A DNA stretch of 64,000 nucleotides from an uncultured Rubrobacteraceae bacterium (GTDB lineage: Bacteria > Actinomycetota > Rubrobacteria > Rubrobacterales > Rubrobacteraceae). A program made the position numbers and the translations under genes. The DNA is taken from positions 1-64,000 of the forward strand of contig CADCVH010000102.1 in assembly GCA_902806085.1 (NCBI GenBank). The letters run 5' to 3'. The number at the start of each line of letters is the position of its first letter. Position 1 is the first letter of the stretch. Below are positions 12,299-22,065 of the stretch, in pieces. The notes under the pieces were generated by a model, which was not told the DNA's origin, searched no databases, and saw only the letters and a list, made by a program, of their open reading frames with translations.

Positions 12299-13012
12299 TT
12301 GAAGGTGTTGTTGGCCCTCTACCTCTCGTTGCTCGTCGCGCTCCTGGCCGGCTGCGTGGCACGGTCAGGGGAAGAGGATCGCTCCTCTCCTTCCAAGGGG
12401 GAAGAGACCCCTGGCACGGAGAGGGACCCCGCCGCGGCCCGCGTGGTGTGTAGTGGCGATGGGGTTCGCGTGCTGACGCCGAAGGTGGCCGCGCGCCGAT
12501 GGGGTACACCTCGCAATCGACAACCGTCTTGGAGGGAGCGCGGACCTCTCGGTGGGCCATCCCGGCGGGGGCGTGGGCTGGAGCGTGCCGCCCGGAGAGA
12601 GCGAGCGCGTCGCCAACGTACCGCCCGGCAAGGTGCAGATCGACTGCTTCGGCCGCTCCTGGGGAGGGCTAGGCTCTTCGGGATGGAGGTCGGGACCATA
12701 CAGGTCCTCGCGGGCGATTCCGGCTACAAGTCAACGAAGCTCGACTGCCCGGGGGGCAGGTCTAAGAAGATCGAACCCTTCACGAAAGAGGAGACAGAGG
12801 AGCAGAAGGGCGCACCCGTGGAGACCTTCCGGCGCGGCAACGCGGGTGCGCTCCGGGAAGGCGACGTGGTGGAAACCGCCGGTAACACCCAAAGCCGGGA
12901 CGAACGAACCGTGCGCGTGGTGCGCGACGGCAAAGTGGTCGTCACGGCGCACTACCTCAAGTTTTCGCGGGGGTGGATGGAGGCCACCGACGAGAGCTGC
13001 GCCGGTCTCTGA
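12299..13012 (+). pseudogene. putative lipoprotein with two compensating frameshifts
   Basis: The first frame begins MKVLLALYLSLLVALLAGC, a lipoprotein signal peptide with an LAGC lipobox, and reads sensibly to VRVLTPKVAA (about 12490). From about 12492 to 12668 the sensible reading is in another frame (ADGVHLAIDNRLGG ... NVPPGKVQIDCFGRSW), while the first frame becomes arginine-rich. From about 12670 the original frame makes sense again (MEVGTIQVLAGDSGYK to the stop). The simplest explanation is one base lost and later regained, either by mutation or sequencing error. No known domain was recognised. The 3' end overlaps the convergent SRPBCC gene by 61 bases. Confidence 0.6.
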
Positions 13013-13515
13013 TCCCCCACGGGGCGCGAACCCACCAGGACCCGCGCGTCGTCGCCCGCCACCAACCGGCCGAGCCGGCCTAGCGACCGCTTGAGGTGGT
13101 CTCGGGCCGCGCGCTTTGCCACCGCGCCTCGCGCGAGACCAGCAAGAAACGGGTCCGCCGGGGCGAGCGCGGTAACGAACGAGGCGACCGCGCCGTCCCC
13201 GACGCGCCCTATGGAGCACTCGCCCCAACCCACGACCGGTCCGTCGTACGTCCAGCGCAACCGACACGGGGTCTCCGCCTCTTCCAACACGCTGAGAACC
13301 CTCTTCTTGAAGCCGAGGAACGAGATCTCCCACTCGGAGACCATCCCGACCCCTCCCTCCCCCGACAGCACCTCGACCCGCTGCACGCCTGGCGCCCACG
13401 CCGGGAAACCTCGCACGTCGAGCACCGCCCCGTAGAAGTCCTCCGGCGCGACCGGCGCGAAGACGGCCGCCGCCAACTCGGTCTCCCTCGCCTTGTTCTG
13501 TGTTGCTACTTCCAT
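12952..13515 (-). CDS. SRPBCC (polyketide cyclase/START-like) family protein
   Basis: This 187-residue protein reads as a helix-grip START-like domain: FAPVAPEDFYGAVLDVRGFPAWAPGVQRVEVL, then WEISFLGFKKRVLSVLEE, LRWTYDG and FVTALAPADPFLAGLARG. Such proteins bind hydrophobic ligands in a deep pocket; the ligand is unknown. The ATG at 13515 has TATAAT ending eight bases upstream, so the transcript is probably leaderless. It is divergent from a Nudix gene across a 40-base gap, and its C-terminal end overlaps the convergent lipoprotein gene. Confidence 0.82.
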   Translation of the reverse strand: MEVATQNKARETELAAAVFAPVAPEDFYGAVLDVRGFPAWAPGVQRVEVLSGEGGVGMVSEWEISFLGFKKRVLSVLEEAETPCRLRWTYDGPVVGWGECSIGRVGDGAVASFVTALAPADPFLAGLARGAVAKRAARDHLKRSLGRLGRLVAGDDARVLVGSRPVGDQRPAQLSSVASIHPRENLR

Positions 13516-13555
13516 GTAGCAAGATTATACAGGCTGCGGGGATATACTCCGGCGC
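13516..13555. promoter_or_regulatory. 40-base divergent promoter with two -10 boxes
   Basis: ATTATA at 13524-13529 is a perfect minus-strand TATAAT, eight bases from the SRPBCC start codon. TATACT at 13543-13548 is a plus-strand -10, seven bases from the Nudix start codon. The two -10 elements are back to back, 13 bases apart, so the two promoters must overlap and probably exclude each other. Confidence 0.7.
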
Positions 13556-14116
13556 ATGGAGGATGGGAGCTGGCTGACGCTTGGGCGGGAGTACGTTTAC
13601 CGGAGCCCGTGGTGCGCGTTTCGGGTGGACGGGGTGGAGCTGCCGGGGGGGCGGGAGATCGAGTACGGGGTCCTGGAGAGCGGGGGGTTCGCGGCCGTGG
13701 TCGCCGTGACGGGGGAGAACGAGGTGGTGCTGGTGCGGCAGTGGCGGCAGCCGCTTGGCGCGTTCACGTTGGAGTTGCCGAGCGGCGGGGTCGAGGAAGG
13801 GGAGGAGCCGGCGGGGGCGGCGCGGCGGGAGCTTCTGGAGGAGGCCGGCTACCGGGCCGAGGGGCTAGAGCGGCTGACGAGCGTGCACACGAGCACCGGG
13901 CGCAGCACGGAGGTCGGGCACGTTTTCGGGTGCCGGGCGGTGAGGGACGGGCGGGGGCCTGCGCCCGAGCCTACTGAGTTTATCCGGGTGGTGGAGGTTC
14001 CGTTCGGGGAGGCTCTGGGGATGGTGCGGGACGGGCGCATCTCGGACGCGGCGACGGTCCTCGGGTTGCTGTGGGAGGCGGGGCGTGGCGCGGGGGGCGC
14101 TCCTTCGGTAGACTAG
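13556..14116 (+). CDS. Nudix hydrolase, ADP-ribose pyrophosphatase type
   Basis: The 186-residue protein has an intact Nudix box, GGVEEGEEPAGAARRELLEEAGY, and the ADP-ribose pyrophosphatase features VVLVRQWRQPLGAFTLELPSGG upstream and TSVHTSTGRSTE downstream. The family hydrolyses ADP-ribose and related nucleoside diphosphates to AMP and a phosphate ester. ATG 13556 lies seven bases after a TATACT hexamer with no Shine-Dalgarno, so it is probably translated from a leaderless mRNA. Confidence 0.9.
   Translation: MEDGSWLTLGREYVYRSPWCAFRVDGVELPGGREIEYGVLESGGFAAVVAVTGENEVVLVRQWRQPLGAFTLELPSGGVEEGEEPAGAARRELLEEAGYRAEGLERLTSVHTSTGRSTEVGHVFGCRAVRDGRGPAPEPTEFIRVVEVPFGEALGMVRDGRISDAATVLGLLWEAGRGAGGAPSVD
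14109..14114 (+). promoter_or_regulatory. candidate -10 of the thiamine operon
   Basis: TAGACT overlaps the end of the Nudix gene and would start transcription about seven bases later, just before the TPP aptamer. No good -35 was seen. Confidence 0.4.
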
Positions 14117-14125
14117 GGGGGCAAA

Positions 14126-14220
14126 CAACCGGGGAGCCGCGAGGCTGAGAGGGCAGAGAGACCGAGAGGTCCGGTGCCGACCCGCTGAACCTGATCCGGG
14201 TAATGCCGGCGCAGGGAGAT
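14126..14220 (+). promoter_or_regulatory. TPP riboswitch (THI element)
   Basis: The region carries the conserved TPP aptamer cores: GGGGAGCC...GAGGCTGAGAG on the 5' side, then CCCGCTGAACCTGATCCGGG and TAATGCCGGCGCAGGGAGA on the 3' side. These form the pyrimidine-sensing and pyrophosphate-sensing helices. It lies directly upstream of thiT and the thiamine salvage operon, so TPP should repress the operon. Confidence 0.95.
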
Positions 14221-14235
14221 AAGAGAGTCTCGTCG

Positions 14236-14267
14236 GCGCATCCCCGCTTATCGTTAGGAGGGTGCGC
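14236..14267 (+). promoter_or_regulatory. ribosome-site-sequestering hairpin of the TPP riboswitch
   Basis: GCGCATCC (14236-14243) can pair with GGGTGCGC (14260-14267). The second arm contains the last three bases of the thiT Shine-Dalgarno AGGAGGG (14256-14262), just before the TTG at 14270. No T tract follows, so control of translation start rather than termination is inferred. Confidence 0.55.
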
Positions 14268-14269
14268 TT

Positions 14270-14824
14270 TTGAACGATTTCAGGGACACGAGGGTCTTGA
14301 CCGAGGCGGCGCTCGCCATCGCGCTCGCGTTCGTTCTGGGCTTCATCGGGATCGACCTGCCCTTCGGCGGCTCTATCTCTCTTGAGATGATCCCCCTGAT
14401 ACTGCTCGCCCTGCGCCAGGGGCCCGTGGTCGGCGTGATCGCGGGTGCCGCCTACGGCCTCTTGAACCTCGCCGTGGAGCCGGTCGTGGTGCACCCGGTT
14501 CAGGTCCTCTTCGACTACCCGCTGGCCTTCGGCGCCCTGGGGCTCGCCGGCTTCTTCCGGCCCACCGTGCGGGGCGCGGTTATCGGGGCCACGGTCGCCG
14601 TGCTGGCCCGCTTCGTCTGTCACTTCGTCTCGGGCGTAGTCTTTTTCGCCTCCTACGCGCCCGAGGGCTGGAACCCCTACGTCTACTCCGGCGCGTACAA
14701 CGCCGCCTACCTGGTCCCGAGCCTCGCAATAGCCCTCGTGGTCGTGGTGGTGCTGCTCCGGGCGCTGGAGGGGGCGCAGCCGTCGCCGCGCCAGGTCCGG
14801 TACCGGCGTTCCACCGCGTCGTAG
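14270..14824 (+). CDS. thiT: ECF transporter S component ThiT (thiamine uptake)
   Basis: This 184-residue integral membrane protein has about six hydrophobic segments: ALAIALAFVLGFIGIDLPF, MIPLILLALRQGPVVGVIAGAAYG, LAFGALGLAGFF and others. It also carries ThiT-like features such as GGSISLEMIPL and a GPVVGVIAGAAYGLLNL loop. ThiT binds thiamine and works with a shared EcfA/EcfA'/EcfT module, which is not in this window. It is the first gene after the TPP riboswitch. The TTG start follows AGGAGGG. Confidence 0.92.
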   Translation: MNDFRDTRVLTEAALAIALAFVLGFIGIDLPFGGSISLEMIPLILLALRQGPVVGVIAGAAYGLLNLAVEPVVVHPVQVLFDYPLAFGALGLAGFFRPTVRGAVIGATVAVLARFVCHFVSGVVFFASYAPEGWNPYVYSGAYNAAYLVPSLAIALVVVVVLLRALEGAQPSPRQVRYRRSTAS

Positions 14825-14825
14825 C

Positions 14826-15509
14826 TTGCGCGCCGCCGTCTTCCTGAACGGGTCACCGGACCCGCCCGACCTGCTCCGGCGCGCCGCCGCCCGGGCCGAC
14901 CTCGTGGTCGCCGCCGACGGTGGGGCCCTGCACGCCCTAGCCGCCGGGGTCGTCCCCGACCTCGTCGTCGGCGACATGGACTCCCTGGGGGACGAGGGGG
15001 CGCGACGGGTCGAGGGGCGGGGGGCTTCCCTGGAGCGCCACCCGTCCCGGAAGGACAAGATGGATGGGCACCTGGCCGTCCTCGCGGCCCGGGAGAGGGG
15101 CGTCACGGACCTCGACCTTCTCTGCGCCGCGGGCGGACGGCCCGGCGCCGTCTTCGCGCTGCCGCACCTGCTGCTGGCGGCGGAGCGGATGGGGGTTCGG
15201 GCGACAGTTGCCGCCGAATGGGGGGAGATGTTCGTGGTGGAGGACGGCCACAGGACGGTGGGGGGCGTGCCGGGCGAGAGCGTCTCCGTCTTTCCGGTCT
15301 CCGGTGTTGCGGAGGGCGTCACCCTGGAGGGTTTCGAGTACCCGCTGGGGGAGGCCCGGATCGGGGCCGGCGACACTTTAGGGTTCCACAACGAGCTGCT
15401 CGGGGAGGAGGCCAGGGTTGCCGTGAAGGGCGGCGCCCTGCTCGTGATCCACGAGACGAGGAGAGACGAGGCCCGGACGATGCCGGGCGGGGGAGGGGAG
15501 ACGTTTTGA
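14826..15509 (+). CDS. thiN: thiamine pyrophosphokinase (thiamine to TPP)
   Basis: Thiamine diphosphokinase moves pyrophosphate from ATP to thiamine. The 227-residue protein has DLVVAADGGALHAL and PDLVVGDMDSL in the N-terminal catalytic domain, and a C-terminal beta-sandwich ending LLVIHETR. The third motif reads KDKMDGHLA where family members have KDxTDxxxA, so a catalytic-region threonine is replaced by methionine. The start is TTG just after the thiT stop codon. Together with ThiT it allows direct use of external thiamine. Confidence 0.87.
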   Translation: MRAAVFLNGSPDPPDLLRRAAARADLVVAADGGALHALAAGVVPDLVVGDMDSLGDEGARRVEGRGASLERHPSRKDKMDGHLAVLAARERGVTDLDLLCAAGGRPGAVFALPHLLLAAERMGVRATVAAEWGEMFVVEDGHRTVGGVPGESVSVFPVSGVAEGVTLEGFEYPLGEARIGAGDTLGFHNELLGEEARVAVKGGALLVIHETRRDEARTMPGGGGETF

Positions 15510-16273
15510 GCGTTCTTGCGGGAAAGGTCGCCCTCGTCACCGGCGCCAGCCGGGGGGTTGGCGCCGCCATAGCGAACGCGCTGGCCGACGAGGGCGCGGC
15601 GGTCGTCGTCAACTACCTGAGGAGCGGGGAACTCGCGGAGGAGGTCGCCGGCGGCATCCGCGGTCGCGGCGGCAGGGCCGTCGCCCATCAGGCGGACGTG
15701 ACCGACGAGGCCGCCGTAAAGGGGATGGTCCAGAGGACGGCCGAAGAGTTTGGCCCCGTGGACGTGCTCGTGAACAACGCGCTCCCCGATTACAGGTTCG
15801 ACCCCGTCGGGCGCAAGGACTTCGGGAGCGTGGGGTGGGGAGACTTCTTGCAGCAGCTCGGGGGGCTCAAGGGTGCTTTGCACTGCTCGCAGGCGGTGGT
15901 GCCCGGGATGGTGGAGGGGGGAGGGGGCAGGATCTTGAGCATCCTCTCCAACCTCATAAACAACCCCGTCGTCCCCTACCACGACTACACGACCGCCAAA
16001 AGCGCCCTGCTCGGCTTCTCCCGCAACCTGGCCGCCGAGCTCGGGCCCCACAACATAACGGTCAACATGGTCGCAGGCGGCCTCATAGACGAGACGGACG
16101 CGAGCGCCCCCACCACCGAGGAGGTCCGCCAACTGGTCGCCGCCTCGACACCCCTGCGCCGCCTCGGCACCCCGGAGGACCTCGCGCGCGCCGTCCTCAT
16201 GTTCGCCTCACCGTGGTCGGACTTCGTGACCGGACAGTACATCACCTGCGACGGCGGGCTGGTGATGGCTTAA
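15506..16273 (+). CDS. SDR family oxidoreductase in thiamine operon (3-oxoacyl-ACP reductase-like)
   Basis: This 255-residue classical SDR has KVALVTGASRGVGAAIA for cofactor binding, NNALPDYR in place of NNAG, and YHDYTTAKSALLGF with the catalytic Tyr and Lys. The C-terminal VTGQYITCDGGLVM is typical of FabG-like proteins. The substrate is unknown. The TTG start overlaps the thiN stop codon as TTGA, and GGGAGGGGAG precedes it, so it is translationally coupled inside the riboswitch-controlled operon. That context suggests a vitamer-related or cofactor-recycling role, though it may be a passenger. Confidence 0.87.
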   Translation: MSVLAGKVALVTGASRGVGAAIANALADEGAAVVVNYLRSGELAEEVAGGIRGRGGRAVAHQADVTDEAAVKGMVQRTAEEFGPVDVLVNNALPDYRFDPVGRKDFGSVGWGDFLQQLGGLKGALHCSQAVVPGMVEGGGGRILSILSNLINNPVVPYHDYTTAKSALLGFSRNLAAELGPHNITVNMVAGGLIDETDASAPTTEEVRQLVAASTPLRRLGTPEDLARAVLMFASPWSDFVTGQYITCDGGLVMA

Positions 16274-16318
16274 AGCTTTCGGGCATCGGATTGTAGGCTT
16301 CGGCTCTTGGGAGGGACT

Positions 16319-17113
16319 TTGAAACGGGTTATGAGCGTAGCGACGAGCGATTCGGGGGCGGGGGCCGGCATCCAGGCCGACCTGAAGGCGTTCTTGCGCT
16401 GCGGCGTCTACGGCACGACGGCCATCGCCGCCACGACCGCCCAGAACACCGTCGGCGTAACGGACATATATCCGTTTCCGCCGGAGGTGGCGGTGAAACA
16501 GATAGAGGCCGTCGCCGGGGACATCGGGGCGGATGCGGTCAAGACCGGGATGTTGTTCAACGCCGGCATCATCTCCGCGGTGGCCGGGGCGGTGCGGCGG
16601 CTGGGGTTGCCGAACCTGGTGGTTGATCCGGTCATGGTCGCGGAGAGCGGGGCGACGCTGCTGGAGCCGGCGGCGGTGGAGACGTACAAGGACGGGCTCT
16701 TCCCGCTCGCCCGGGCCGTGACGCCTAACGTCAACGAGGCTTTCGCGATCCTCGGCGAGCCCGTGGAGGAGGCGAAGATCGAGGACTGCGCGGCCGCGCT
16801 CTACGAGCTTGGTCCCGAGGTCGTGGTCATCACCGGCGGGCATACGTCCGCGGGTGCGGACCTTCTCTACGACGGCGGGAGGTTCGAGAGGATAGAGGGC
16901 CCCGTGCATCCCTCGGAGAACACCCACGGGGCGGGTTGCACGCACTCTTCGGCGCTCGCGAGCTTTCTGGCGCGGGGCTTCGATCCCGTGGAGGCGGCCC
17001 GGCGGGCCCGGGCGGTCGCCTCCGAGGCGGTCGGGTACGGGCTCGGGGAGATCGGGGCCGGCGCGGGCCCGGTGCACGCTTTAGGCGGTATCCTGGAAAG
17101 GGGAGGGCGATGA
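16319..17113 (+). CDS. thiD: hydroxymethylpyrimidine (phosphate) kinase ThiD
   Basis: ThiD phosphorylates HMP to HMP-P and then HMP-PP. The protein has the ribokinase-like start VMSVATSDSGAGAGIQADLKAF, TTAIAATTAQNTVGV, and AVKTGMLFNAGII. It continues with VVDPVMVAESGATLL and the C-terminal ATP/anion-hole motif THGAGCTHSSALAS with its catalytic Cys. Length is 264 residues. TTG 16319 is preferred over 16307 because GGGAGGG lies five bases upstream. Its stop overlaps the thiM start as ATGA. Confidence 0.93.
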   Translation: MKRVMSVATSDSGAGAGIQADLKAFLRCGVYGTTAIAATTAQNTVGVTDIYPFPPEVAVKQIEAVAGDIGADAVKTGMLFNAGIISAVAGAVRRLGLPNLVVDPVMVAESGATLLEPAAVETYKDGLFPLARAVTPNVNEAFAILGEPVEEAKIEDCAAALYELGPEVVVITGGHTSAGADLLYDGGRFERIEGPVHPSENTHGAGCTHSSALASFLARGFDPVEAARRARAVASEAVGYGLGEIGAGAGPVHALGGILERGGR

Positions 17114-17910
17114 ACGCTTCTGAGGTCTTGCGACGGCTCGGGAAGGAGCGACCGCTCGTCCACCACCTGACCAACTACGTCACCGTCAACCTCGTCGCCA
17201 ACGCGACGCTCGCGACGGGTGCGTTGCCCGTGATGGCCAACGCCGTCGAGGAGGTCGAGGAGATGGTGGCGACCGCCTCCGCGCTCGTCATCAACATGGG
17301 GACGCTGGACGGGGCTTGGGTGGAGGCCATGGTCCTTGCCGGCAAGGAGGCCAACCGCCGCGGCATCCCGGTGATCCTCGACCCCGTCGGCGCCGGGGCC
17401 ACCCGCTTTCGCACCGAGACGCCCGAGAGGCTCCTCTCGGAGATAAGCTTCGCCGCCGTCTGCGGGAACGCGGGGGAGATCTCGACGCTCGCGGGCCTCG
17501 CCGCGGAGGTGCGCGGGGTGGAGAGCATCGGCGGCGACGCCCGCGAGGCCGCCCGGAAGGCAGCCCTACGCCTTGGCACGACGGTCGCTGCGACCGGCGA
17601 GGTGGACTACGTGTGCGACGGGGAACGCCTCTTTGCCGTCGAGAACGGCCACCCCCTGATGGGCCGCATCGTCGGGAGCGGCTGCGCCTCCACGGCCGTG
17701 GTCGGGTGCTTCGCCGCCGTCGGGGGCGGCGGCTCGGAGACGGTGGCCGGCGCCCTGGCCCTCTTCGGCCGGGCGGGGGAGGCCGCGGCAGAAGGGTCAG
17801 AAGGCCCCGGCACCTTCGAGCCCCGCCTGCTCGACGCGCTGGCCGCCCTCGCCGCCGACCCCGACGAGCTCGACGGGCGCCTCGTGGTCGAGGATCTGCC
17901 CCTTGCGTAG
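17110..17910 (+). CDS. thiM: hydroxyethylthiazole kinase ThiM
   Basis: ThiM phosphorylates hydroxyethylthiazole (THZ) for salvage. The 266-residue protein shows PLVHHLTNYVTVNLVANATLA, LVINMGTLDGAWVEAM and VILDPVGAGATRFRTE. It also has VCGNAGEI with the catalytic-site residues and GRIVGSGCASTAVVG with the conserved cysteine. It starts in an ATGA overlap with thiD and overlaps the following thiW start by eight bases, a tight operon arrangement. Confidence 0.95.
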   Translation: MNASEVLRRLGKERPLVHHLTNYVTVNLVANATLATGALPVMANAVEEVEEMVATASALVINMGTLDGAWVEAMVLAGKEANRRGIPVILDPVGAGATRFRTETPERLLSEISFAAVCGNAGEISTLAGLAAEVRGVESIGGDAREAARKAALRLGTTVAATGEVDYVCDGERLFAVENGHPLMGRIVGSGCASTAVVGCFAAVGGGGSETVAGALALFGRAGEAAAEGSEGPGTFEPRLLDALAALAADPDELDGRLVVEDLPLA

Positions 17911-18427
17911 CCCCCGGAGCACCGCGGGGGGCACCGCGGGGAGCACCGCGGGGGGCGCCACGCGCAGGCTCGTCCTCGCCGCGCTCTTCGCGGGGCTGGG
18001 TGTCCTTCTCTCCTCCTTCGCCATACCCGTCGGCGCGTCGCGCGTCTTCCCTTTCCAGCACGCCATAAACGCCGTCGCGGGGGTCCTGCTCGGCCCGTGG
18101 TGGGCTGCGGGTTCGGCGCTCGTTACCGCGACCTTGAGGTTCTCCCTCGGGACCGGGAGCCTCTTCGCCTTTCCCGGGAGCCCCTTTGGGGCGCTGGCGG
18201 TCGGCTTCGCTTACCGGTTGCTGCGCCGGGACGAGGCCGCGCTGTTCGAGCCGGTCGGCACCGTGCTCGTCGGGGCGACGCTCGGGGCGGTCCTGATCTC
18301 GCCGTTCCTCGGGGCGGCAGGGGGCGGCCTGATCGCCCTGATGATCGCCTTCGCCTTCTCCAGCGTCCCCGGCGCCGTTATCGGCTACGGGGTCCTGAAG
18401 ATCTTGAGAAGGTCCGGGCAGGCGTGA
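17903..18427 (+). CDS. thiW: ECF transporter S component ThiW (thiazole uptake)
   Basis: This 174-residue membrane protein has about five hydrophobic segments: LVLAALFAGLGVLLSSF, AINAVAGVLLGPWWAAGSALVTATLRF and others. It carries the ThiW-like VGASRVFPFQHAINAVAGVLLGP and FPGSPFGALAVG. It is predicted to bind the thiazole precursor for the energy-coupling factor transporter. It sits beside thiM, the THZ kinase, which supports that substrate. The first 18 codons encode a repeated STAGGTAG stretch from a GC-rich tandem repeat (17918-17954). Start is TTG overlapping thiM. Confidence 0.87.
   Translation: MRSPRSTAGGTAGSTAGGATRRLVLAALFAGLGVLLSSFAIPVGASRVFPFQHAINAVAGVLLGPWWAAGSALVTATLRFSLGTGSLFAFPGSPFGALAVGFAYRLLRRDEAALFEPVGTVLVGATLGAVLISPFLGAAGGGLIALMIAFAFSSVPGAVIGYGVLKILRRSGQA
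17918..17954 (+). repeat. GCACCGCGGGG tandem repeat at the 5' end of thiW
   Basis: Three consecutive copies of a 12-base unit (AGCACCGCGGGG, G/A variant at the first base) are followed by a partial GCGCC copy. The unit is read as Ser/Gly-Thr-Ala-Gly and lengthens the cytoplasmic N terminus of ThiW. Confidence 0.7.
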
Positions 18428-18501
18428 TGAAGATGGTGAGGAGCTTAACGGCGGGGTCGCCGTTCACTGAAAGGGGGGACGAGGAGGCGTATGTTTGGGG
18501 C

Positions 18502-19269
18502 ATGAAGCGGACGCCCCGGGCGCAGGAAATCCTGAACGACTCCGACCACCGCGCCTACCCGGTGCCCGCCGGTCCCTGGGCCCTGGGCATGAGCTGGCAC
18601 GACCTCCTCTTCATGCACTGGCCCGTCCCCGCGGACCAACTGCGCCCGCTCGTGCCGTCCGCCTTGAACCTGGACACCTTCGACGGCGACGCCTGGCTCG
18701 GCGTCGTCCCGTTCCGCATGAGCGGCGTGAGGCCCCGCCTTATGCCCGCCGTGCCCGGGCTCTCCGGCTTCCCCGAGCTGAACCTCCGCACGTACGTCAG
18801 CGCCGGCGGAAAGCCCGGCATCTGGTTCTTCTCCCTGGACGCCCACAACCCCGTGGCCGTCCGCCTCGCGCGCGCCACCTTCAAGCTGCCGTACTTCGAC
18901 GCCCGGATGTCCTCCCGGAAGGAGGGCGAGGAGATCCACTACCGCAGCACCCGCACGCACCGGGGCGCCCCGCCGGCGGAGTTCGTGGGCCGCTACCGGC
19001 CGGCGGGCGGGCCGTTCGAGAGCCGGCCGGGGTCGCTGGAGAACTTCCTGACGGAGCGCTACTGCCTCTACGCCGCGGACGGGAGGGGCAACGTCCGGCG
19101 GGGGGACATCCACCACCAGCTCTGGCCCCTGCGCCCCGCGGAGGCCGAGGTAGAGACGCTCCGGATGACCGGCCAGATCGGGGTCGCCCTGCCCGACACC
19201 CCGCCGCTCCTGCACTTCTCGGAGCGGCTCGACGTGCTCGCCTGGCCCCCGAGGAGGTTGGAATCTTGA
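18502..19269 (+). CDS. DUF2071 (YqjF-like) protein in thiamine operon
   Basis: This 255-residue protein has DUF2071 hallmarks. The N-terminal WHDLLFMHWPVPADQLRPLVP is followed by LDTFDGDAWLGVVPFRMSGVRPR, FPELNLRTYV, GIWFFSLDA and a late YRPAGG...LENFLTERYCLY. The family function is unknown. The start at 18502 is preferred because homologues begin near this point; an in-frame ATG at 18427 overlaps the thiW stop codon and cannot be excluded. A TATGTT hexamer ends six bases before 18502, so an internal leaderless promoter is possible. It is coupled to thiE by a TTGA overlap, so it belongs to the thiamine operon. Confidence 0.87.
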   Translation: MKRTPRAQEILNDSDHRAYPVPAGPWALGMSWHDLLFMHWPVPADQLRPLVPSALNLDTFDGDAWLGVVPFRMSGVRPRLMPAVPGLSGFPELNLRTYVSAGGKPGIWFFSLDAHNPVAVRLARATFKLPYFDARMSSRKEGEEIHYRSTRTHRGAPPAEFVGRYRPAGGPFESRPGSLENFLTERYCLYAADGRGNVRRGDIHHQLWPLRPAEAEVETLRMTGQIGVALPDTPPLLHFSERLDVLAWPPRRLES

Positions 19270-19901
19270 GGATCGACGACGCCCGGTTTCTCCTGGTCAC
19301 GGACCCGCGCCCGGACCTCGTCGCCCGCGTGGAGGCCGCCCTCCGGGGCGGGGTCGACATAGTCCAGCTGCGGGACAAGAAGGCTTCGAGAGAAGAGTTG
19401 ATCCCGCTCGCGGAGGAACTCAAGGACGTGTGCGGGCGTGCCGGCGTCCTGTTCACCGTCAACGACGATGTGGATCTCGCCAGGCGCGTCGGGGCGGACG
19501 GGGTGCATCTCGGGGAGGACGACGATCCCACGCCGCGCGCCCGGGGCGTCCTCGGCCCGGGCGTCGTGGTCGGGCGCTCCGCCGGGGGTGTTGCCGAAGC
19601 CCTGGAGGCCGTTCGCGGGGGCGCGGATTACCTCGGCGTCGGGGCGGTTCACGCCACCCCGACGAAGCCCGAAGGGGATGTCGCCGGGCTCGCCCTGATC
19701 CGGGCCCTGGCCCGCGAGGACCTCTCCGTCCCGTGGTTCGCCATCGGCGGCGTGACCCTCGAAACCGCCCCCGCCGTCGCCGGGGCCGGCGCCCCCGGAT
19801 TCGCCGTCGTCCGCGCGGTCCTCGACGCCGAGGACCCGGAGAATGCCGCCCGAAAACTGCGCGCGCTGCTGGACTGGCGACGCGGGGCTGAAGGCCAATA
19901 A
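19266..19901 (+). CDS. thiE: thiamine phosphate synthase ThiE
   Basis: ThiE joins HMP-PP and THZ-P to give thiamine monophosphate. This 211-residue TIM-barrel protein has FLLVTDPR, GGVDIVQLRDKKASREEL and FTVNDDVDLARRVGADGVHLGEDD. VVGRSAGG, ADYLGVGAVHATPTKP and PWFAIGGVTLETA are also present, all standard ThiE motifs. The TTG start overlaps the DUF2071 stop as TTGA; GAGGAGG lies upstream. It ends the riboswitch-controlled operon. Confidence 0.95.
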   Translation: MRIDDARFLLVTDPRPDLVARVEAALRGGVDIVQLRDKKASREELIPLAEELKDVCGRAGVLFTVNDDVDLARRVGADGVHLGEDDDPTPRARGVLGPGVVVGRSAGGVAEALEAVRGGADYLGVGAVHATPTKPEGDVAGLALIRALAREDLSVPWFAIGGVTLETAPAVAGAGAPGFAVVRAVLDAEDPENAARKLRALLDWRRGAEGQ

Positions 19902-19929
19902 CCCAGACCCCTGCGCCCCCACCGAAAGA

Positions 19930-19935
19930 TATACT
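19930..19935 (+). promoter_or_regulatory. -10 element of the tandem-Nudix/thiL operon
   Basis: TATACT ends six bases before the ATG of a ten-codon mini reading frame (19942-19974), the spacing expected for a leaderless transcript. Confidence 0.6.
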
Positions 19936-19941
19936 CCCCGG

Positions 19942-19974
19942 ATGGCCGGCGTCTACAAGGATCTCGTTCTATGA
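19942..19974 (+). CDS. ten-residue upstream mini-ORF (MAGVYKDLVL)
   Basis: An ATG six bases after TATACT opens a frame of ten codons, MAGVYKDLVL, whose TGA overlaps the ATG of the tandem-Nudix gene as ATGA (19971-19974). There is no Shine-Dalgarno before the Nudix gene. A leaderless ribosome reading this peptide and restarting at the overlap would explain its translation. A second example lies at 42515. Confidence 0.5.
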   Translation: MAGVYKDLVL

Positions 19975-20843
19975 GGGCCGATCTCGTCTCGGGCATTCTG
20001 CCGGTGCGCCCCGACGGGCGCATGTTGTTGCTGCAACGTCCGGCGGGGACCTGGGAGCCGCCGGCGGGTCGGCTGCGTCCCGGGGAGTGCTTCGAATCCG
20101 GAGCCGTGCGGGAGCTATACGAGGAGACCGGGATGCTCGTCGCCCCGCGGCGCATACTCGCGACCTGGGTTGGCGATGCCCCGGGCGGCCGCTCGCTGGC
20201 CGCCGTGACCTTTATCGGGCGGACGGAAGTGGGGGAGGTAAGGCTCTCCGACGAGCACCTGGATCACAGGTGGGTGACCCTCGATGAGTGGCTCGCGCTG
20301 CCGAGCTGGTGGAGCCCGCAGAACATCCGCCGCGTGGCGGGACCATTGAGGGCGCTTCGCGAAGCGCCCCTGCCGAGGCCGGCGCCGCCGGGGGGTGGGG
20401 AGGAGGACGGCGTCGTCAACGCCATCCTGGGCGCTGGGGTGGTGGTAGCGGATCTCGAAGGGCCGGTGCCGCGGGCCTTGCTCATGCGCCGCCGGAAGCC
20501 GCCCGTGGGGCTCTGGGAGAACCCGGGAGGGGTGCTGGAGCCCGACGAGGATTTCGAGGCCTGCGCCCGGCGTGAGGCGGGGGAAGAGACGGGCGTGAAG
20601 ATCGAAGGCCCCCTGTCGGCCTGGTGGACGCGGGTCGAGCCCTGGAAGGCCCCGGACGACCCCGAGCTGTACGCCGGGGTCGGTTTCCTCGCCCGCCACC
20701 CGGGGGGTGAGGTCGAGCTCGAGGACTCGGCCCACGACGCCTACCTGTGGGCGACGGAGGGGGAGTGGCGGGGCCTGCCCACCTGGTACACGAAGAGGGA
20801 TTCGGACGTGTTGTGGGCGGAGATCCGGGAGATGCGCCGGTGA
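19971..20843 (+). CDS. tandem Nudix hydrolase (two fused domains)
   Basis: The 290-residue protein contains two complete Nudix domains. The first box is GRLRPGECFESGAVRELYEE then TGM (residues about 33-55). The second is GGVLEPDEDFEACARREAGE then ETGV (about 178-201). A proline-rich linker near 128 separates them. Both boxes keep the metal-binding RExxEE residues. The substrate is unknown. It heads a three-gene operon ending in thiL, next to the thiamine salvage operon. A role in clearing damaged or toxic thiamine diphosphates, or in hydrolysing another diphosphate, is an inference from location. Confidence 0.88.
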   Translation: MRADLVSGILPVRPDGRMLLLQRPAGTWEPPAGRLRPGECFESGAVRELYEETGMLVAPRRILATWVGDAPGGRSLAAVTFIGRTEVGEVRLSDEHLDHRWVTLDEWLALPSWWSPQNIRRVAGPLRALREAPLPRPAPPGGGEEDGVVNAILGAGVVVADLEGPVPRALLMRRRKPPVGLWENPGGVLEPDEDFEACARREAGEETGVKIEGPLSAWWTRVEPWKAPDDPELYAGVGFLARHPGGEVELEDSAHDAYLWATEGEWRGLPTWYTKRDSDVLWAEIREMRR

Positions 20844-21136
20844 ACGGGACGCAGGATCTAAAGGAAGAGGGAACGGAACCCCCCGCCGGCGGGAGACCAG
20901 GCAGGGCGCGGTTCTTCGGTATAGCGCTGATGGCGTTCGCGGTCCTGATGTGGGTAGCGGCGGCGGCCGTGCTGCTCCTTCCTCTCTCGGGGACGCAGAA
21001 GGTGTGGGCGACGTCGGCGTTTCTCGTGGCGGGGGAGGTGGCGTTCTGGGCCTCCGCCGTCCTTCTCGGGCGGGAGGTGTTCCGGCGCTACCGGGGAAGC
21101 CTGGACCCGCGCAGGCTCTTCGGGGGGCGCAGATGA
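20840..21136 (+). CDS. small membrane protein, transporter-suffix-domain type
   Basis: This 98-residue protein has two transmembrane helices (FFGIALMAFAVLMWVAAAAVLLLPL and VWATSAFLVAGEVAFWASAVLLG) separated by a short SGTQK loop, and a basic C-terminal tail. Proteins of this shape are often named transporter suffix domain proteins; no activity is known. Its GTG overlaps the Nudix stop codon as GTGA, and its TGA overlaps the thiL ATG as ATGA, so all three are translationally coupled. Confidence 0.72.
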   Translation: MNGTQDLKEEGTEPPAGGRPGRARFFGIALMAFAVLMWVAAAAVLLLPLSGTQKVWATSAFLVAGEVAFWASAVLLGREVFRRYRGSLDPRRLFGGRR

Positions 21137-22065
21137 ACGAGTTCGACGTGATCCGCAAGTTCTCCGGCCTCTTACCGCCCGCGCCCGCGGAGGTCCTCGT
21201 GCCCATCGGCGACGACTGCGCCGTCTTGAGGCTAGGGGACGGGACGTGGGTCGCCGCCTCGGACATGCTCGTTTCGGGACGCCACTTCAAGGGGTGGGCG
21301 GCCCCCGCGGACGTCGGTTACAAGGCGGTGGCCGTCAACGTCTCGGACGTGGCGGCGATGGGGGGGATCCCGCGGTTCGTCCTGGTCTCCGGCGCCGCGC
21401 CCGATCCCGAGATGGCGCTCGGCGTCTTCGAGGGGGTGGCGGAGGCGTGCGGGGCGTTCGGCGTCTACCCGCTCGGTGGCGACACCACGCGCGCCGACGC
21501 CCTCACGGTGGACGTCGCCATCCTCGGCGAGCTGGGGGCGGCGCCCGTCCTGCGCTCGGGGGCGAGGCCGGGGGACCTGCTCGCCGTCACGGGAGAGCTC
21601 GGCGCCTCGGCGGCCGGGCTCCTCGCGCTGGAGGAAGGGAGAGAGGGTTTTGGACGATTAAAGAAGAGGCACCTGCGGCCCCTCCCGAGGACAGAGGCCG
21701 GGCGGGCGGCGGCGGGGCTCGGGGTGGGGGCCATGATCGACCTCTCAGACGGCCTCGCCTCCGACGTCCGCCACGTCTGCGAAGCGAGCGGCGTAGGGTG
21801 CAGGGTGGACCTCGACCTGCTTCCCGTCGCGCACGACGCGCGCGAGCTCGCGGCGTCCCTGGGGCGCGACCCCGCGTTGCTCGCCGCAACCGGAGGCGAA
21901 GATTACGAGCTCCTCGTCTCCGCCCCGGAGCGGGTCCTGAGAACCCTCGCCGAAACCGTAGATATACCCGTAACAGTCGTGGGGGAGATTGCTGGGTCCG
22001 GCATCGACTTCCGGCGCGGGGGCGACCCGGTCGATCACCTTTCAGGCTGGGACCACTTCGCCTAG
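21133..22065 (+). CDS. thiL: thiamine-monophosphate kinase ThiL
   Basis: ThiL converts thiamine monophosphate to TPP with ATP. The protein (310 residues) has PIGDDCAVLRLGDGTWVAASDMLVSGRHF, AVAVNVSDVAAMGG and YPLGGDTTRAD. VTGELGASAAGL, MIDLSDGLASDVRHVCEASG and TGGEDYELLVSAP follow, all ThiL/PurM-superfamily motifs. It completes the ThiE route, whereas ThiN completes the direct thiamine route. It is the last gene of the Nudix-membrane protein-thiL operon. Confidence 0.95.
   Translation: MNEFDVIRKFSGLLPPAPAEVLVPIGDDCAVLRLGDGTWVAASDMLVSGRHFKGWAAPADVGYKAVAVNVSDVAAMGGIPRFVLVSGAAPDPEMALGVFEGVAEACGAFGVYPLGGDTTRADALTVDVAILGELGAAPVLRSGARPGDLLAVTGELGASAAGLLALEEGREGFGRLKKRHLRPLPRTEAGRAAAGLGVGAMIDLSDGLASDVRHVCEASGVGCRVDLDLLPVAHDARELAASLGRDPALLAATGGEDYELLVSAPERVLRTLAETVDIPVTVVGEIAGSGIDFRRGGDPVDHLSGWDHFA

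Follow-up and report, generated by a model that had tools for sequence, protein, structure and literature searches.

A thiamine salvage operon of Rubrobacter under a thiamine pyrophosphate riboswitch, with a candidate vitamer-aldehyde reductase and a predicted acetoacetate-decarboxylase-fold protein

The window analyzed here, 64,000 nucleotides of contig CADCVH010000102.1 from an uncultured Rubrobacteraceae bacterium (assembly GCA_902806085.1), carries a thiamine salvage operon of Rubrobacter that is controlled by a thiamine pyrophosphate (TPP) riboswitch and lies in a genome with neither ThiC nor a true ThiG. On the + strand, the riboswitch is followed by thiT-thiN-SDR-thiD-thiM-thiW-DUF2071-thiE and then by a two-domain Nudix gene and thiL. 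The third gene, encoding a short-chain dehydrogenase/reductase (SDR), is a genuine TPP-regulon gene and a working member of the operon. Taken as a whole, the explanation considered fairly probable is that of a salvage operon in which the SDR would reduce a vitamer aldehyde and the DUF2071 protein would stand outside precursor salvage. Close relatives by sequence carry the name Rubrobacter. Neither ThiC nor a ThiY-type pyrimidine-binding protein was found in the window genome, nor was a true ThiG, the best match reaching 1e-8 as against 1e-85 or better for real ThiG; the host therefore lives by salvage. The riboswitch is the only TPP riboswitch in this genome. The elements of the unit are as follows:

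14120–14234, + strand: TPP riboswitch aptamer (THI element), RF00059, 63.2 bits against a gathering threshold of 54.3
14270–14824, + strand: thiT, S component of an energy-coupling factor (ECF) thiamine transporter, TIGR02357, 146.9 bits (cut-off 108)
14826–15509, + strand: thiN, thiamine pyrophosphokinase (TPK), TIGR01378, 126.3 bits
15506–16273, + strand: SDR of family NF006393/PRK08642, 318.6 bits (cut-off 292)
16307–17113, + strand: thiD, kinase of hydroxymethylpyrimidine (HMP) and its phosphate, HMP(-P), TIGR00097, 260.7 bits
17110–17910, + strand: thiM, hydroxyethylthiazole (HET) kinase, TIGR00694, 271.7 bits
17903–18427, + strand: thiW, ECF S component for a thiazole precursor, TIGR02359, 140.6 bits
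18502–19269 (alternative start 18427), + strand: DUF2071 protein, PF09844, 249.6 bits
19266–19901, + strand: thiE, thiamine phosphate synthase, TIGR00693, 199.5 bits

In family scans, all eight genes exceed their Pfam or NCBIfam cut-offs, which bears out the eight-gene unit behind one TPP riboswitch that the original prediction had proposed from the sequence.

Within Rubrobacteraceae, SDR orthologues occur in 10 of 39 genomes, i.e., the window's own and nine others at 75–91% identity. Four of the ten lie inside the main operon in the order thiN-SDR-thiD; in one of these genomes (G001) the contig starts within thiN, which places the leader outside view. Six of the ten have a TPP riboswitch of their own (59.7–69.1 bits), whose aptamer reaches the start codon and whose conserved GGAGGGA doubles as the Shine-Dalgarno sequence. 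Two of these six head an SDR-thiD-thiM-thiE unit, one is located between thiN and thiD, and three are monocistronic and far from thi genes. One genome (G022) combines a lone riboswitch-controlled SDR with a TPP riboswitch-LuxE-LuxC unit on another contig. The congeneric genomes G002 and G005, which have lost thiE, also have no SDR.

The association extends well beyond the family. A scan with the SDR alignment used narrow peptide patterns and returned only Rubrobacteraceae and two weak unrelated matches; therefore, a wider sample was taken from plasmids and from the phylum (12 of 396 genomes). Plasmids were searched with the SDR, and 22 loci from 15 genera and three phyla were inspected, with riboswitches called using Rfam and our own model, R1. 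At 20 of the 22 loci, a same-strand TPP riboswitch immediately precedes the SDR or the gene that opens its operon. Several types of operon occur: thiM-thiE-thiD-SDR in Gemmobacter, Neorhizobium, and Rhizobium; LuxE-LuxC-ABC transporter-SDR in Azospirillum and Priestia (ABC, ATP-binding cassette); LuxE-LuxC-SDR in Pantoea; and SDR with a flavin monooxygenase of the NtaA/DmoA family. In Niallia, ThiW and two tandem riboswitches lead an operon of an NCS2 nucleobase-type permease and LuxE-LuxC-SDR, and small Lactiplantibacillus and Levilactobacillus plasmids likewise carry LuxE-LuxC-SDR with an NCS2 permease. The transporters beside LuxE, LuxC, and SDR are thus of the ABC/NMT1, NCS2, or ThiW type; solo SDR copies occur as well. 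Conversely, this LuxC clade was found in 27 plasmid records, every one of which has the SDR close by. No TPP riboswitch was found near the LuxC genes that other actinobacteria carry outside cassettes of this kind, which served as a negative control, and model R1 called none at 36 unrelated DUF2071 loci (L189–L224); the linkage between SDR and riboswitch is therefore not an artefact of the search. In the tree, the Rubrobacter SDRs cluster with the LuxEC-linked SDRs (support 96/96), the outgroup being on a long branch and unsure in its placement. That the SDR belongs with the thiamine genes, as originally proposed, is thus strongly supported by orthologues in several phyla that have their own TPP riboswitch or sit in other TPP-controlled thi operons.

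Some of these loci deserve separate mention. TPP riboswitch-SDR-NtaA/DmoA monooxygenase units are found in Pseudochrobactrum, Mesobacillus, and Rhodococcus (L126, L127, and L129). In Niallia taxi, the two complete tandem TPP riboswitches ahead of thiW span L151:3170–3466. Two Lactobacillaceae plasmids of 10 kb and 21 kb (L237 and L238) contain identically annotated TPP riboswitch NCS2-LuxE-LuxC-SDR cassettes with toxin-antitoxin and integrase genes near them, an arrangement resembling a mobile vitamin cassette. The LuxE-LuxC-SDR cassette of Pseudomonas silvicola (L240:4688–8262) appears broken into several frames and is probably decaying.

The NCBIfam model that the window SDR matches, NF006393 (PRK08642), is named "3-oxoacyl-ACP reductase" (ACP, acyl carrier protein). 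Ten of 12 scored plasmid SDRs also exceed its cut-off of 292 bits, with those of Pantoea and Lactiplantibacillus just under it (276–277 bits). The Rossmann motif TGASRGVG and the residues Arg16, Tyr161, and Lys165, invariant in 30 sequences, place the protein among the SDRs. Its catalytic Ser/Thr148, Tyr161, and Lys165 are kept, and the loop TGASRG is of the NADPH type. The Asn of the usual SDR tetrad is lost in nearly all members, and Gln117 and YHDY-x3-K are specific to the family. Both the family name and the top PDB match (FabG, 2uvd) would agree with an ordinary 3-oxoacyl-ACP reductase that sits incidentally in TPP-controlled operons. Yet this is very improbable, since the protein scores far under the FabG family cut-off (163.4 vs. 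297.75 bits, TIGR01830), Gln117, YHDY, and the missing tetrad Asn differ from FabG, and TPP-riboswitch control recurs in several phyla. A FabG role was rejected on these grounds of family cut-off, residues, and regulation.

The operon partners suggest a reaction. LuxE is an activating enzyme for carboxylic acids, and LuxC is a reductase that takes the acyl group to the aldehyde; characterized NtaA/DmoA monooxygenases split C–N or C–S bonds and leave an aldehyde. In the related TPP-controlled cassettes, a carboxylate would be converted to an aldehyde by the LuxE-like ligase and the LuxC-like reductase or, alternatively, the aldehyde may come from C–N or C–S cleavage by the flavin monooxygenase. 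The SDR would then reduce this aldehyde of one thiamine half to the alcohol with NADPH, and the alcohol would be phosphorylated by ThiD or ThiM. Given that the unit is TPP-repressed and encodes transporters and kinases for thiamine precursors, HMP or HET is the expected alcohol. From the motifs and the gene context, we infer that the SDR is a classical NADPH-type reductase of a thiamine-moiety aldehyde, an assignment that covers substrate, cofactor preference, and reaction direction, and it probably repairs oxidized thiamine pieces. The original suggestion that the SDR reduces an oxidized precursor would therefore be the best reading, given the riboswitch linkage and the operon partners.

Several observations weigh against this assignment or its details. 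LuxC was not found in the window organism, which does have the SDR; there, the aldehyde would have to be taken up or be formed by oxidation. Both Caballeronia SDR loci, the two exceptions among the 22, have no TPP riboswitch, and an actinobacterial SDR copy (L150) has only a marginal one (16.7 bits). Finally, ThiG is present in 1 of the 10 family genomes with the SDR and missing from nine, whereas it is present in 15 of the 29 others and missing from 14 (Fisher p = 0.028, phylogeny ignored), a distribution that favors a thiazole substrate.

This last point bears on the main alternative, namely that the SDR reduces 2-(4-methylthiazol-5-yl)acetaldehyde to HET and thereby feeds ThiM. Besides the ThiG distribution, a thiazole substrate agrees with one genome (G034) that has ThiC, no ThiG, and a lone riboswitch-controlled SDR, with the position of ThiW at the head of the Niallia LuxE-LuxC-SDR operon, and with the presence of thiM in the thiMED-SDR operons. 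However, the ThiG p-value takes no account of shared descent, and one genome (G007) has ThiG and the SDR together. The NCS2 permease, the NMT1/THI5 substrate-binding protein, and the chemistry of the NtaA/DmoA monooxygenase suit a pyrimidine better, and the SDR adjoins thiD in both lineages. ThiC or ThiY, the sources of HMP, occur in 3 of the 10 SDR genomes vs. 12 of the 29 others, with no clear trend. On balance, the thiazole alternative appears unlikely, and there is a weak lean towards a pyrimidine aldehyde, i.e., reduction of 4-amino-5-formyl-2-methylpyrimidine to HMP, as the more likely reaction.

Reduction of a vitamer aldehyde by the SDR may be part of something larger. The chances are about even that the cassettes represent a widespread, partly plasmid-borne, and previously undescribed pathway that rescues oxidized thiamine pieces under TPP riboswitches. 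Such a pathway would import a heterocyclic carboxylate (via NCS2, ABC/NMT1, or a ThiW-linked system) and convert it through LuxE, LuxC, and the PRK08642 SDR to HMP or HET; the window operon would hold its last step, built into a core salvage operon. Known metabolites include thiamine pieces with oxidative or other damage, and we are aware of no established route that returns the carboxylate or the aldehyde to the vitamin. If the pathway is real, a TPP-controlled LuxE-LuxC-SDR cassette of soil bacteria, lactobacilli, and Rubrobacter closes that gap, the annotation of a "FabG-like" family is corrected, and the cassette model can be checked with a few simple substrates. Literature searches of limited journal coverage, which are weak evidence of absence, returned nothing on LuxE-LuxC-SDR cassettes and nothing linking DUF2071, oarX, LuxC, or LuxE to thiamine salvage.

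The DUF2071 protein presents a different picture. The gene lies in the thi cluster in all 31 family genomes that carry it, and it precedes thiE in every long-enough family contig except those of G002 and G005. In these two genomes, where ThiE was not found, DUF2071 follows thiT-thiN, and the cluster has lost thiD, thiM, thiW, and thiE; the protein is nevertheless intact, ~70% identical to that of the window, and retains the family-invariant residues. Two complete genomes (G016 and G027) keep the thi cluster without DUF2071. Outside the family, no thi homologue or clear TPP riboswitch was found within ~5 kb of any of 36 actinobacterial DUF2071 loci, and none was found at five further loci (L061–L063, L131, and L132; Priestia and Halobaculum included). 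A survey of homologues outside the clade, which the original prediction had put forward for both companions, thus favors the SDR as a thiamine-linked gene (TPP riboswitch at 20 of 22 plasmid loci) and speaks against DUF2071 (no thi homologue or clear TPP riboswitch at 41 loci). The idea that DUF2071 acts on a pyrimidine or thiazole was abandoned, because the gene is retained after the loss of thiD, thiM, thiW, and thiE in two relatives and is missing from two complete genomes that bear the cluster. Another candidate, a DUF2071-thiE fusion suggested by a 521-aa open frame in G009, G021, and G029, was discarded, as DUF2071 and thiE are read in different frames.

The AlphaFold2 (AF2) model of the DUF2071 protein, built from a diverse alignment, has a pLDDT of 94.2 and shows the acetoacetate-decarboxylase (ADC) fold, with VIA Z values of 18.6–20.4 over 206–215 residues. 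No conserved lysine was found in an alignment of 33 DUF2071 sequences, which sets them apart from ADC proper, and no Schiff-base chemistry is therefore expected. A published profile analysis also links DUF2071 to the ADC fold and notes that the Schiff-base lysine is missing (PMC4520260). According to the model, DUF2071 is thus an ADC-fold protein, and its fixation in the thi cluster is confined to Rubrobacteraceae. Judged from gene distribution, its role is outside precursor salvage, as either a passenger of general function or a protein acting at the level of thiamine itself.

The view that DUF2071 is a passenger whose function is general and independent of thiamine, and that it became fixed in the operon in the ancestor of the family, has a slightly better than even chance of being correct. 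It is in agreement with the absence of thi homologues and clear TPP riboswitches at all outside loci and with the equal conservation of the flanking Nudix genes, but it does not readily account for a place beside thiE that survives many operon rearrangements in the family. Action on thiamine, thiamine monophosphate, or TPP, for example on a damaged form, would explain retention with thiT-thiN alone; it is a tentative and rather unlikely possibility. The constant location in the cluster, the intact genes of G002 and G005 despite the loss of thiE, and a second, 48% identical DUF2071 in G061 (L225:7276–8274), divergent from a TPP riboswitch-thiE-thiG unit, speak for it. On the other hand, the Priestia and Halobaculum relatives have the same conserved residues and lie away from thi genes, and the gene is missing from G016 and G027. 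DUF2071 is an example of how operon membership by itself can mislead.

The gene joins within the unit are tight. The thiN/SDR and DUF2071/thiE junctions are TTGA overlaps, thiD/thiM is an ATGA overlap, and thiM and thiW overlap by 8 nt; thiT and thiN are separated by 1 nt, and SDR and thiD by 33 nt. The description of the unit as joined by TTGA/ATGA overlaps or short gaps thus applies to most joins, but the DUF2071 start at 18502, which best fits the orthologues, leaves a 74-nt gap after thiW; the upstream ATG at 18427 is the sole start giving an overlap with the thiW stop. A four-codon frame (ATG TTT GGG GCA TGA, 18491–18505) with a good Shine-Dalgarno sequence has an ATGA overlap with the DUF2071 start, perhaps by chance. 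Three further features complete the locus:

14233–14271, + strand: predicted expression platform, hairpin GGCGCAUCC/GGAGGGUGCGC followed by UUUU, from the RNA fold of the leader
19971–20843, + strand: tandem-Nudix protein, two stretches matching PF00293, and synteny
21136–22065, + strand: thiL, thiamine-phosphate kinase, TIGR01379, 266.7 bits (cut-off 184)

The predicted fold places the thiT Shine-Dalgarno sequence within the 3' arm of the hairpin, and we infer that this post-aptamer hairpin may act as the expression platform. The Nudix gene and thiL occur on the same strand and in the same place downstream of thiE in nearly all relatives, and the operon probably extends past thiE into both. 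A scan of positions 13000–21000 returned no sigma-70 promoter-like sites and no + strand terminator-like sites between the genes, both of which are weak evidence. The tandem-Nudix gene is also present in both thiE-less genomes, and its product could act on damaged thiamine phosphates. A different Nudix gene (13556–14116) is located immediately before the riboswitch, with a divergent gene (12952–13515, − strand) beside it; several relatives keep both ahead of their thi operon.

Comparison with known systems sets these proteins in context. The name of NF006393/PRK08642 implies fatty-acid synthesis, whereas the genomic setting of the SDR here is thiamine salvage. In several other Rubrobacteraceae genera, the place before thiD that the SDR takes here is occupied by a ThiXYZ/ThiY-type pyrimidine importer, the binding protein of which is not in the window genome. 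The DUF2071 model aligns with members of the ADC superfamily (ADC, MppR, and Swit_4259) over ~210 residues with Z values of ~20, although identity is only ~10% and the conserved Schiff-base lysine is missing. The gene oarX is said to have been described by Rodionov et al. in 2002 as an oxoacyl-reductase-like, TPP-regulated gene of THI-element operons. Like the SDR, it would be an oxidoreductase in thi operons, and the thiMED-SDR operons would match it, while that description is not known to include the copies in Rubrobacter, the cassettes with LuxE/LuxC/NCS2/ThiW, or the overlap of riboswitch and Shine-Dalgarno sequence; if the SDR is oarX, its regulation, but not its function, was already described. 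Finally, the cassettes share adjacent LuxE and LuxC Pfam domains with the fatty-acid reductase of bioluminescence, and the same carboxylate-to-aldehyde chemistry is expected of them. They differ from it in being TPP-controlled, in having an SDR in place of luciferase together with transporters of the vitamer type, and, by the interpretation proposed here, in a substrate that would not be a long-chain fatty acid.

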